A stretch of 59,307 bases of DNA from an uncultured Pelagibacteraceae bacterium (lineage in GTDB: Bacteria; Pseudomonadota; Alphaproteobacteria; Pelagibacterales; Pelagibacteraceae): contig CACHGH010000006.1 in the NCBI GenBank assembly GCA_902579215.1, positions 1-59,307 of the forward strand, read 5' to 3'. Positions 53,405 to 57,552 of this stretch are shown here, piece by piece; positions within the stretch are counted from its first letter, which is position 1, and each line of letters begins with the position of its first letter. The position numbers and the translations under genes are program-made. Under the pieces are notes generated by a model that saw nothing but the letters and a program-made list of their open reading frames with translations, had not been told where the DNA came from and ran no database searches.

Positions 53405-54583
53405 ATGAAAAAAAAAAAGAAAAAAGCTGTTAAAGTAAAAAAAAAAAAAATAACAACGAAAAAAAAATTATATAAAGTAAAAAATAAGAAAAAAAAATAT
53501 TTTAATCGAAGAAAAACAATAAAAAAAATAATCAGAAGAAAGAAAAAGAAAAATTTAAATGCTCAAATATCCCAAGGCAAGAAAAATAGCCTAATTTATA
53601 AAATAATTAAATTTCAAGAGAAATTTAAGTTTAATTTCAAGATCAAAATAAACTTTAACTTAGATCAGAAAATAAAAAGCTTCTTTGATAAAATTGAAAA
53701 TAAAATTAGAGAATACAAAGATATAAAAGCAGAAGAAAAAAAAAGAATAAAAATAGAAGAACAAGAAAAGGCGAGACAAGAAAAAGTTGAACTTGCAAAA
53801 CAAAAAGAAGAAGAAGAAAAGCTAAAAATTAAGCTTAAAGAAAAAGCTTTAAAAGAAGAAATCAAACTAGAAAAAGAAAGATCAAGAGATATAAAATTGT
53901 TTTTAAGGCAAGAACAGGCAATTGTTAGAAAAGAACAAGCAGAAAAGCAAAAGCAATTTTTACAACAATTAAAGTTAGATAGGCAAATTGAAAAATTTAG
54001 AATTAGAGAACTTAAAGAGCTAGAAAAATTGGAAAGAATTTCTTTGAGGGAAAAAAGAGAAGATTATTCTGGTCTTCAAGAGAGAATAGAAAAATTAAAA
54101 GAAAAATATAGAATTATAAGGGATCAAAAAATTAGAGAAAGAGTGGAAGCTCTTGGAGTTCAAATTCAAGAAGGTGATGATCGAGAAACTCTACTAAGAA
54201 AAGAGAAAGAATATACTATAGCTAGGCAAAGAATTGAGCTTTCTTTAGAAAGTTTTTATAGAAGTGCTAGTAGCTTGGTATTTCAGCTTAACAAAAGACA
54301 CATTACAAGACATATGTCGATTTTTAGATGTTTAGATAGAAGATTTGAAACTGGTGAAATTTTTATTAAATGGGATGAATCGAAAGACGATGAGTGGCTT
54401 ATTTTAATTTATATCAAAGATAATTCTCCTGAAGAGGGTATAGTAATCGAAGATAAATCTAATCCAGAAAAAAATTTATCTCATGAATTTAAGCCAAGTG
54501 AAATTTTTAAAGCATCAGATCTTATGGTTGATTCATTAACACAGTTATTAGCTAGAGAAAGAGCTAAAAAAGAAAGTAATTAG
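53405..54583 (+). CDS. Lysine-rich coiled-coil protein of unknown function
   Basis: Not recognised. The 392 residues have three parts. Residues 1 to about 55 are almost only Lys and Arg (MKKKKKKAVKVKKKK), like a histone-H1 tail. About 85-285 is a continuous charged coiled coil rich in Glu, Lys and Gln. The last 110 or so look globular (LESFYRSASSLVFQLNKRH, GEIFIKWDESKDDEWLILIY, FKASDLMVDSLTQLL). No signal peptide or membrane segment. It follows cfa by 32 bases and converges on the ScfR-type regulator with a two-base gap. The first codons contain A11 and A14 runs. Nucleic-acid binding by the tail is a guess. Confidence 0.75.
   Translation: MKKKKKKAVKVKKKKITTKKKLYKVKNKKKKYFNRRKTIKKIIRRKKKKNLNAQISQGKKNSLIYKIIKFQEKFKFNFKIKINFNLDQKIKSFFDKIENKIREYKDIKAEEKKRIKIEEQEKARQEKVELAKQKEEEEKLKIKLKEKALKEEIKLEKERSRDIKLFLRQEQAIVRKEQAEKQKQFLQQLKLDRQIEKFRIRELKELEKLERISLREKREDYSGLQERIEKLKEKYRIIRDQKIRERVEALGVQIQEGDDRETLLRKEKEYTIARQRIELSLESFYRSASSLVFQLNKRHITRHMSIFRCLDRRFETGEIFIKWDESKDDEWLILIYIKDNSPEEGIVIEDKSNPEKNLSHEFKPSEIFKASDLMVDSLTQLLARERAKKESN
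53408..53450 (+). repeat. Long A tracts (A11 and A14) at the start of a coding region
   Basis: A11 at 53408-53418 and A14 at 53437-53450 fall in codons 2-5 and 11-16 of the lysine-rich gene. Runs of this length are prone to slippage. The reading frame is intact in this sequence. Confidence 0.85.
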
Positions 54584-54585
54584 AA

Positions 54586-56004
54586 TTAACCATTAACAAA
54601 AATTGATACTCCTCTTTGATTGATATTTACATCATAGTTTTGAGTGTCAGGTGGAAAGGCTCTTTGACTGCAATCTAGTCGATCACATTTTCTACAAGAT
54701 ACTCCAATTTTTGACTCACTTTTTTCATCATTTAAGTTTAGTCCATCTGCATAAACAAAATCTTTAGCATGCTTAATTTGACATCCTAAACCAATCGAAA
54801 GCAAACCTTTCTCTTCTCCGTATTTTGAAATTCCTTTCTCTACAGTTCTTGCAATACAGACATATTTTTCACCATCAGTCATTTTACTCACTGCAGCACT
54901 AATTTTACCTGGATTCGAAAATGCACTATAGACATTCCACTTCGGACAAGCACCACTAAGTCTGGGCAGCTCAATACCTGAAAGTGAAAATCTTTTTGAA
55001 ACATTTCCACTTCTGTCAACTCTAATCATATGTAAAGGTATACCTCTTAATTTTGGATCTGGGTTATTAAGACAAGTAACTCTATGGCACACTTGTTCAA
55101 AAGAAACAGCAAACGTAGATTGTAAAAGTTCTAAATCATATCTATGTTTTTTTACACATTCATGAAAAAAAGTTTCATAAGGCATCATTATTGCAGCACC
55201 CGTATAATTTAGTAATGCAACTTTGGAAACTTTTCTACTCGTATCAGAAGGAAAAGAAAAATCGTCTAAATATTCTTCAATTATTTCATCTGCTTCTAAC
55301 TGGGAAACTAATGCAGCAGTGAATAATTTTTTTGTTTCGAGATTTAATAAATCAGATAAATGAAATTCACGTTTGTCAGGATAAAAAATTTTTGAAAATG
55401 GTTTGTTTTCTTGCGGAAGTATATCTTTGACATTTATTTGATGTTTTTCTTTCAAATAGTTGCAAAGAGACAGATATCTGGTTCTATTATTTAATTTTAC
55501 TTTTTCGGAAATTTCTGTTGCGAATTTTTCAAGCTTAGGAAAATAATTTTCAAATTTTTGAATAAAGTCTGATACAATTTCTCCTGGAAAAGTTGTTCCC
55601 CCTTCATATATTTTTTTTTCTATATTTTGTCCTAACTCATGTTCTTTATTTTTGTGATCAATTCCAAGTTTCACTAATGCTTTGGCAATTTTGGGGTTTA
55701 ATCTAACTATCTCTTGAACTTCATCTGAACGAATATCCAAGTCTTCTAACAATGATATTTTTACAATTTCTTGAGTTCTTGTTTCGAGATCTGGGTCGGT
55801 TCTTTTTGTTAAATCTTCCTTTTGCAATTCTAATAAATCCTGGATTCTTAATAATAAATCCCCATCTGGCTTTCTTTGATTGGACTCAATTAAAGAAAGG
55901 TATGCGGGAGTTATGCCAAGGTCTTTAGCAAGAGTTATAGCTTTAATATTTTTATTTTGTCTTTTAGCCCTTATTATTTGACCATAATTGTATATTTTAC
56001 GCAT
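54586..56004 (-). CDS. ScfR-type XRE regulator (short-chain fatty acyl regulator)
   Basis: Transcription regulator of the ScfR/RamB type that controls acetate or propionate metabolism. The 472 residues have an N-terminal Cro-type helix-turn-helix (IRAKRQNKNIKAITLAKDLG, PAYLSLIESNQRKPDG). An IrrE-like middle follows (AALVSQLEADEIIEE, HECVKKHRYDLELLQSTFAVS). The C-terminal domain carries conserved cysteines (SCRKCDRLDCSQRAFPPD). It is divergent from aceA, its probable target, with palindromic repeats between them that also sit ahead of its own start. Confidence 0.88.
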   Translation of the reverse strand: MRKIYNYGQIIRAKRQNKNIKAITLAKDLGITPAYLSLIESNQRKPDGDLLLRIQDLLELQKEDLTKRTDPDLETRTQEIVKISLLEDLDIRSDEVQEIVRLNPKIAKALVKLGIDHKNKEHELGQNIEKKIYEGGTTFPGEIVSDFIQKFENYFPKLEKFATEISEKVKLNNRTRYLSLCNYLKEKHQINVKDILPQENKPFSKIFYPDKREFHLSDLLNLETKKLFTAALVSQLEADEIIEEYLDDFSFPSDTSRKVSKVALLNYTGAAIMMPYETFFHECVKKHRYDLELLQSTFAVSFEQVCHRVTCLNNPDPKLRGIPLHMIRVDRSGNVSKRFSLSGIELPRLSGACPKWNVYSAFSNPGKISAAVSKMTDGEKYVCIARTVEKGISKYGEEKGLLSIGLGCQIKHAKDFVYADGLNLNDEKSESKIGVSCRKCDRLDCSQRAFPPDTQNYDVNINQRGVSIFVNG

Positions 56005-56016
56005 AATTAACTATTA

Positions 56017-56032
56017 GTTAATATTTTGTTAA
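56017..56032. repeat. Direct copy of the aceA-region operator half-site
   Basis: GTTAATATTTTGTTAA occurs here and again at 56089-56104. This copy lies 13 bases before the regulator start and may serve autoregulation. A looser related stretch, AGTTAATAATTTAA, lies between the two. Confidence 0.6.
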
Positions 56033-56081
56033 TTTTCAGTTAATAATTTAATCAATTTATCAATTAATATCAATAAAAATC

Positions 56082-56111
56082 TTTACTTGTTAATATTTTG
56101 TTAATATTAAC
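56082..56111 (+). promoter_or_regulatory. Predicted promoter overlapped by a 23-bp palindromic operator
   Basis: The palindrome GTTAATATT, TTGTT, AATATTAAC (56089-56111) has perfect nine-base arms. It covers the spacer and -10 box of a candidate promoter: TTTACT (56082-56087), 17 bases, TATTAA (56105-56110). Binding of a regulator there should block initiation, which would fall near 56117. Confidence 0.6.
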
Positions 56112-56116
56112 ACTTC

Positions 56117-56233
56117 ATGAGAAATTTAATAAATCCTGAAGATAGAAGTAAACCTTCAAACTGTGTATCTCATCATGACGATATCTGCTTTTCAGATCAG
56201 AATTACAGTGAAGATCAAGAAGACCAGGATTAG
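56117..56233 (+). CDS. Possible 38-residue Cys/His peptide upstream of aceA
   Basis: An ATG at 56117 opens 38 codons: MRNLINPEDRSKPSNC, then VSHHDDIC and an acidic tail ending EDQEDQD. The cysteines and histidines are spaced C-X2-H-H-X3-C, which could bind a metal. The start coincides with the predicted transcription start, so translation would be leaderless. It lies 44 bases before aceA. No family is recognised. It could be a short regulatory leader peptide, a real metal-binding microprotein, or a chance frame in an untranslated leader. Confidence 0.35.
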   Translation: MRNLINPEDRSKPSNCVSHHDDICFSDQNYSEDQEDQD

Positions 56234-56277
56234 TTAAATTACTCATCTTCATAATTCAAATAAACAGGTTAAGTTAA

Positions 56278-57552
56278 ATGACAAAATCTAATGTATCTTA
56301 CGAACTTAAAAGATTTTCAGGCATTAAAAGAGATTATACAGAAAAAGAAGTTGAGAGACTTAGAGGATCGATAAAAATTCATTATTCTATTTGTGAACTT
56401 CAATCAAAAAAATTATGGACTCTCTTAAATACTGAGCCATTTGTAAATACACTTGGTTCTCTATCTGGAAATCATTCGGTACAACATGCTAAAGCAGGGT
56501 TAAAAGCAATTTATGTTAGTGGATGGCAGGTAGCAGCTGATGCAAATACAGCTGGCGAAATGTATCCTGATCAATCACTTTATCCCTTTGACAGTGCCCC
56601 AAAATTAGTTGACTCCATCAACAATGCCCTCATTAGAGCTGATCAGATACAGCATATGGAACTTAAAGATGGAGAAATGAAAGCAGAAAATAAAGTTGAT
56701 TACATGTTGCCAATTATTGCTGATGGTGAAGCAGGTTTCGGGGGACCTCTTAACGTTTTTGAATTAACAAAAAAATTTATAAAGGCTGGTGCTGCAGGAG
56801 TTCATTTTGAAGATCAATTAGCAAGTGAAAAAAAATGTGGGCATATGGGTGGAAAAGTTTTAGTCCCAACAGGTACTGCTATTAAAAATCTTAAGGCAGC
56901 AAGGTTGGCTGCAGATATAGCAGATGTACCATTAATTATACTAGCTAGAACTGATGCTAATGCAGCAAAATTAATTACAAACGATCATGATGAGAATGAT
57001 AAACCTTTTTTAACTGGAGAAAGATCCCCTGAAGGTTTCTTTTATGTGAAAAGTGGAATCGAACAAGCTATATCAAGAGGCTTAGCTTATGCTCCATACG
57101 CTGATTTAATATGGTGCGAAACTGCTACTCCTAACCTTGAAGAAGCAAAAAAATTTGCAGAAGCAATACATAAAAAATTTCCAGGAAAATTACTTGCTTA
57201 TAATTGTTCCCCTTCTTTTAATTGGAAAAAGCATTTAACTGACCAAGAAATTTCTACCTTCCAAACGAAAATTGCAGAAATGGGTTATAAATTTCAATTT
57301 ATAACACTTGCTGGTTTCCACACACAAAATATTGCAGTTTTTGAGTTAGCTGAAAAATATAAATCTGAGGGTATGAGCGCTTATTCAAAAATTCAAGAAA
57401 AAGAATTTGCGAAAGAAAAAGATGGTTATACAAGCGTTAAACATCAGAGAGAAGTAGGCACTTCATACTTCGATGCAGTATCAAATACAATTAGTTCAGG
57501 AAAAAGTTCTACTACAGCCATGAAAGATTCAACAGAATCTGAACAATTTTAA
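56278..57552 (+). CDS. aceA: Isocitrate lyase
   Basis: Splits isocitrate into succinate and glyoxylate, the entry to the glyoxylate shunt for growth on two-carbon compounds and fatty acids. The 424 residues include [30 protein letters not shown], the catalytic loop [21 protein letters not shown] and [10 protein letters not shown]. Full length for the bacterial form. The regulator, operator and promoter upstream suggest control by an acyl-CoA-type signal. Malate synthase is not in the window. Its stop shares TTAA with the convergent TerB-DnaJ gene. Confidence 0.97.

Follow-up and report, generated by a model that had tools for sequence, protein, structure and literature searches.

What, if anything, is encoded in the short stretch between the operator of a ScfR-family regulator and aceA, the isocitrate lyase gene, in an uncultured Pelagibacteraceae bacterium? 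The DNA analysed here (the window) is 59,307 nucleotides long, and a preliminary description, made from its letters, had picked out a 38-residue frame before aceA as a possible metal-sensing or regulatory leader peptide for the glyoxylate shunt. The features discussed are collected in Table 1. Genera are numbered, g1 (genus 1) being that of the window, and G and L numbers are our labels for genomes and loci; G734 is a close relative from the same genus.

Table 1. Features at the ScfR-aceA locus of the window
Feature	Position	Strand	Basis
Small protein gene, type B, 38 aa	56117..56233	+	dN/dS against G734, independent HMM, relatives at equivalent position
ScfR-family regulator (HTH_3, Peptidase_M78 and ScfRs domains), divergent	54586..56004	-	Pfam ScfRs 5.4e-56
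aceA, isocitrate lyase	56278..57552	+	Pfam ICL 7.7e-112
Peptide/aceA-proximal operator-like direct repeat, TTGTTAAT-N5-GTTAAT	56087..56105	+	read from window sequence; putative
Candidate -10 (TATTAA), 6 nt before ATG, not a consensus match	56105..56110	+	inference only
ScfR-proximal operator-like GTTAAT repeats	56017..56044	.	read from window; counterpart repeats in genus-1 loci

Coding status and start of the small frame

The frame opens with ATG, runs for 38 codons (MRNLINPEDRSKPSNCVSHHDDICFSDQNYSEDQEDQD) and closes with TAG, and the aceA ATG follows 44 nt beyond its end. Its product carries C16-X2-H19H20-X3-C24 and an acidic tail, with a net charge of -7, all as first described. Over the first 28 codons the window and G734 differ at 15 nucleotides, 10 of them at codon position 3, giving 9 synonymous and 6 nonsynonymous differences (NG86 dS 1.36, dN 0.09, dN/dS about 0.07). 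Equally few nonsynonymous changes were seen in 0 of 20,000 composition-matched neutral placements, and an in-frame stop would arise in 11,470 of the 20,000. The G734 peptide (MKNLINPEDKNKPSNCVSHHDDICFADNEHDQQSND) is read from a frame free of frameshifts and stops, while the antisense ORF at 56115-56252 is interrupted by stops in that genome. The synonymous-biased conservation that the preliminary description had suggested looking for is thus present, the frame is kept in relatives, and neither of the disruptions named there as grounds for doubt occurs in G734. An HMM built from the type B peptides (defined below) of g5 and g9 only also ranks the window frame first, at E 1.4e-4, among 963 window frames of at least 25 aa in a set of 970 sequences, the second-best window frame having E 0.34.

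The frame is short and frames of similar length are common in that part of the window, as would be expected of an open frame arising by chance within intergenic DNA, but the substitution pattern and the relatives already refute that explanation, which we consider extremely improbable. On these grounds the frame is confirmed as a genuine, selected protein-coding small ORF, and the case for its coding and conservation is as good as sequence can show. Six representative small proteins had no match in Pfam-A up to E 1, and their sole match in NCBIfam fell far under the cut-off (14.6 bits versus 650). A structure model of the small protein was uninformative (pLDDT 62, pTM 0.13).

The ScfR-family gene lies beside repeated operator boxes, which were recognized by eye and are putative sites; in genus-1 loci, TTTGTAAAT...TTGTAAATT stands at the place equivalent to the aceA-proximal repeat. 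The half-sites of the window read GTTAAT instead of GTAAAT, in a genome that otherwise belongs to g1. Counted by hand, the last half-site of the window begins 17 nt upstream of the peptide ATG, and the corresponding distance is 18 nt in 116 of 125 genus-1 loci scored, the window in the set. By eye, no Shine-Dalgarno sequence was seen upstream of the ATG, either in the window or in those genus-1 sequences that were viewed; an SD-like stretch occupies the same place in g5, g9 and g12. From this geometry a leaderless start of the small frame is likely, and we infer a leaderless message in most marine lineages. The proposal that the frame starts where transcription starts is a matter of geometry only, because the promoter scan listed no + strand consensus promoter at the peptide start.

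The gap from the small-frame stop to aceA in genus 1 is 25-69 nt, with a median of 50 (105 loci scored), so that any coupling would not be tight there. Small-frame stop and aceA start overlap or directly adjoin in g8 (L326, G208), g5 (L337, G205) and g12 (L340, G223), which suggests translational coupling in those three genera. An RNA element as the explanation of the region was rejected, as no Rfam family matched in the window, the fold is ordinary (z -1.30), and the promoter/terminator scan gave 0 terminators.

Two types of small protein before aceA

A direct search of 201 genomes of the same genus with the window peptide returned, besides the window, five weak matches (E 0.06-0.6), not beside aceA where both coordinates were known. 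Going instead by way of the aceA loci revealed a small-protein family that the direct search had missed. The same 201 genomes include 139 aceA-positive ones, and the DNA upstream of aceA was viewed in 127, the other 12 having been omitted for partial aceA matches or a contig edge. At 124 of the 126 loci besides the window there is a frame, mostly of 52-55 aa, with RDDHCDWGSSG; the other two are L053, with RDDNCDWGSSG, and L033, where the sequence ends inside the frame. What we call type A, with the motif Y-x-RDDHCDWGSSG, is therefore found in 124 of the 125 readable same-genus loci besides the window, the remaining one having Asn for His. The window peptide represents a type B, with the motif DDxC.

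In the 124 type A rows, which were selected by the string DDHCDW, that string is preceded by an invariant Y, one free place and an invariant R and is followed by an invariant G, S, S, G. Synonymous third-position changes are common, and for 52 distinct sequences that form one subgroup pN/pS comes to 0.21 for the whole frame and 0.017 for the core, the latter lowered by the selection of rows. All 40 loci fetched by the best ScfR matches, window included, have a type A or type B peptide, type B in four of them; this set partly overlaps the same-genus genomes. When 121 genomes were searched by profile, 77 strong matches were obtained, every one directly before aceA at 33-76 nt, with no free-standing copy away from aceA among them. 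Among named genomes a scan turned up 516 relatives; the 80 listed all bear the name Pelagibacteraceae, Pelagibacter or Pelagibacterales.

Within the window's genus, type B was found in only the window and G734 among 399 genomes (profile A2, E up to 0.001), and in the family it was found in 11 of 197 genomes at E below 1e-7. The other carriers are g13 (YHDDVCFDE), g2 (SRHDDVCFLDQ), g14 (SRHDDVCFFDQ) and g5 (ESNCVSFDDDC, ESNCVSYNDDC or ESNCVSFNDDC), along with g9, which has both types, type A first and then type B (ESNCVSFDDACFDE or ESNCVTLDDYCFDE). In the g9 loci L248 and L249 the two stand in tandem from operator to aceA, the first frame with a clear Shine-Dalgarno-like stretch. Nine type B sequences, when aligned, have just three residues in common throughout, Met1, one Asp and one Cys. 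A single family uniting types A and B is not supported (hhalign probability 2.2%).

Across the Pelagibacteraceae, then, a small protein is encoded in the slot that separates the ScfR-type operator from aceA, and by our reading of the loci one is present in the SAR11 relatives examined wherever the usual ScfR adjoins aceA. In the class outside the family, profile A4 matched 0 of 96 genomes at E 0.01, its own genome among them, this being a profile that, with E allowed up to 1, matched just 4 of 20 family genomes. At 25 aceA loci from outside the family, a reading of the listed ORFs by eye showed none of this kind, and 17 of these loci have a ScfR match beside aceA, one of them at a broken aceA; since no such ORF was noticed at those 17, ScfR appears able to work without the peptide. 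A phage origin was also considered and rejected, as no type A relative was found in viral contigs (4 pattern matches, none confirmed).

Exchange and loss of the ScfR cassette

In the window, a ScfR gene of foreign type, the operator and about the first 40 codons of aceA (56278-56400) lie together. This ScfR shares 90% identity with that of G734, 76-77% with those of g13, 68% with that of g2 and 66% with that of g14, versus 57-61% within its own genus over full-length matches. Beyond residue 60, the window AceA is 90-92% identical to genus 1 and 81% to g13; its first 40 residues are 82% identical to g13 and 71-77% to the type A members of the genus. As these first residues are nearer to g13, the exchanged stretch probably reached into the beginning of aceA and stopped there. 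Read in this way, the window carries a foreign cassette of g13 type, made up of ScfR, operator and peptide, before a mostly native aceA.

Trees for ScfR and AceA were compared at 34 loci, and the peptide types were read in all of them. With 32 of the 34 scored (two g9 loci with both types were omitted), there are two changes of peptide type on the ScfR tree, compared with five on that of AceA. A single clade of the window, G734, g13, g2 and g14 is rejected by the AceA data (p-AU 0.0002), as is a single genus-1 clade by the ScfR data (p-AU 3e-6), both groups having been named after a first, smaller tree and many forks of the AceA tree being weakly supported. The peptide type seems to be inherited together with ScfR. 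Because the peptide gene sits physically between ScfR and aceA, this co-inheritance may be plain linkage, and with that caveat the cassette reading is well supported. All 34 ScfRs share six invariant C-terminal Cys residues. Beside the ScfR gene the window also has, at 53405-54583, a very lysine-rich open frame of 392 aa, kept by two relatives at 68-73% identity.

Losses are seen as well. In a family sample, 60 of 147 genomes have aceA, and the upstream DNA was read in the seven of these that lacked a ScfR match at E 1e-40. G208 and G325 have a ScfR beside the peptide after all, cut at contig edges, and G279 ends just upstream. The others belong to g3 and are 64-86% complete: G234 (L330) has an intact type A peptide, a decayed operator and no adjoining ScfR that we could find, while G202 (L325), G250 (L327) and G304 (L328) have neither ScfR nor peptide before aceA, and profile A4 found no peptide elsewhere in these three. 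Thus, where g3 genomes have aceA and no ScfR adjoining it, three loci of four lack the peptide as well. In G250 the start of aceA appears to be fused to the former peptide start. The same tRNA-like sequence stands ahead of two of these four g3 loci.

Possible roles of the small protein

The preliminary description had suggested a regulatory leader peptide for aceA, and of this a selected frame that starts at the operator is supported and the regulatory link is likely. How such a link might work is less certain. Our tentative reading, which we place somewhat below an even chance, is that the small protein belongs to the ScfR cassette and feeds back on the control of ScfR or aceA. The small frame would be the first gene of the aceA transcript, co-transcribed from a ScfR-controlled promoter, and its product, presumably a short, acidic and probably disordered protein with one conserved motif, would act as a protein by binding a partner through that motif. 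ScfR itself would be the likeliest partner, with feedback on expression of the glyoxylate shunt as the result. Purifying selection, the recurrence of a small protein at this place in genus after genus, the agreement of its type with ScfR, the three g3 loci lacking both ScfR and peptide, and the six Cys kept by the ScfRs all favor this feedback; against it, the peptide is found only before aceA, which fits a role in cis equally well, G234 keeps an intact peptide where we found no ScfR, and at the 17 loci outside the family ScfR occurs with no such ORF noticed.

The nearest characterized system is RamB of Paracoccus denitrificans, a ScfR that carries a [4Fe4S] cluster, binds intermediates in the form of CoA esters and acts on the glyoxylate operon as both activator and repressor (PMC10370305). 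As in the window, that ScfR lies beside glyoxylate genes and its operator is made of repeated boxes, but the RamB boxes are 18 bp apart and a small protein is not mentioned in the available portion of that paper (PMC10370305). It is possible, if doubtful, that the two unrelated-looking proteins, each inherited with its own ScfR, are dedicated and probably leaderless co-regulators, which jointly with ScfR would set the answer of the glyoxylate shunt to CoA-ester and iron-sulphur state. Such a co-regulator would be the first of its kind, as we know of no earlier peptide partner of the ScfR family.

A role in cis, in which the finished peptide has no job, is the rival that we would weigh most seriously, although we judge it rather unlikely. 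Translation of the short acidic frame would sense the state of the cell, the di-acidic motif slowing or destabilizing the ribosome in its exit tunnel and so altering aceA translation or the fate of the mRNA. The position directly upstream of aceA only, in 77 of 77 cases in genus 1, the contact between stop and start in g5, g8 and g12, and the DD common to types A and B are all in keeping with a leader, and a leader would likewise travel with ScfR as part of the cassette. There is also a precedent in E. coli: where acidic residues among the first 30 aa make the ribosome pause, EttA relieves the pause, and in this way it controls aceB, aceA indirectly, and the leader MgtL (PMC11282234). The small frame resembles MgtL and the acidic-start E. 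coli genes sensitive to EttA in being short and acidic (PMC11282234), here directly before a glyoxylate-shunt gene. Unlike in those leaders, however, the conserved motif is much more than acids, since conservation also spans Y, R, W, G, S, S and G (in rows picked by DDHCDW), and neither an attenuator structure, a terminator nor an unusual fold was found in the window. The residues after the core Trp vary, numbering 15 or 16 in 122 of 124 genus-1 sequences, 19 in the other two and, by eye, 13-18 in other genera, and the g5 protein of type B adds a long tail peculiar to it; the spread of the gap to aceA in genus 1 also speaks against a leader. For SAR11 strain HIMB5, 11 uORFs have been reported, aceA being unmentioned in the portion of the main text available (PMC6429828), and the small frame before aceA may already be in the supplementary list of that paper.

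Alternatively, the small protein might act in trans on isocitrate lyase itself, binding the enzyme and tuning its activity or oligomerization in the manner of cyanobacterial CP12 and AcnSP (44 aa), small-protein modulators of central enzymes (PMC7760959). It is an operon neighbor of aceA, type A is found in 0 of 9 genomes without an aceA match, and G234 combines aceA with an intact peptide in the apparent absence of ScfR. It resembles CP12 and AcnSP in being short and in its link to an enzyme of central carbon metabolism (PMC7760959); unlike them it has no Pfam match, its partner here is putative and its type follows the regulator rather than the enzyme, a native-like AceA standing beside a type B peptide in the window. 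Three g3 genomes (64-86% complete) moreover keep aceA where no peptide was found, and we regard this alternative as unlikely. Metal sensing, the other half of the original proposal, fares worse still and appears very unlikely. The C-X2-HH-X3-C pattern that prompted it is confined, among the type B sequences read, to the window and G734, type B as a whole has one invariant Cys, and in type A the His and Cys are replaced by Asp or Asn and Gln in g3, g6, g8, g9 and g12, with His replaced even within genus 1 by Asn (L053) or Tyr (L223). As a zinc- or iron-binding site the pattern was rejected, its Cys/His ligands being conserved in neither type. The modest rise, in iron-limited Cand. P. ubique, of aceA (SAR11_1240, 1.58-fold, P 0.091) and of the transcription regulator SAR11_1242 (1.60-fold, P 0.054) would fit a metal response (PMC2864753, Table 1). 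The regulator is also higher in light (PMC3090418).

The number missing between these two genes, SAR11_1241, may be the small-protein gene before aceA; it is not named in the literature searched, in which no title or abstract opening describes a small protein at this place. The small protein has no counterpart among the families of the two curated libraries searched, and the cassette swaps and the losses of ScfR amount to natural experiments on its function. A core that stays nearly unchanged beside isocitrate lyase, exchanged jointly with ScfR, would point to a control on whether carbon is burned or saved. SAR11 bacteria, which possess few regulators, rank with the ocean's most abundant cells. 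With a selected protein in this slot that seems to be inherited with ScfR, they appear to have an undescribed layer of small-protein control over the glyoxylate shunt.
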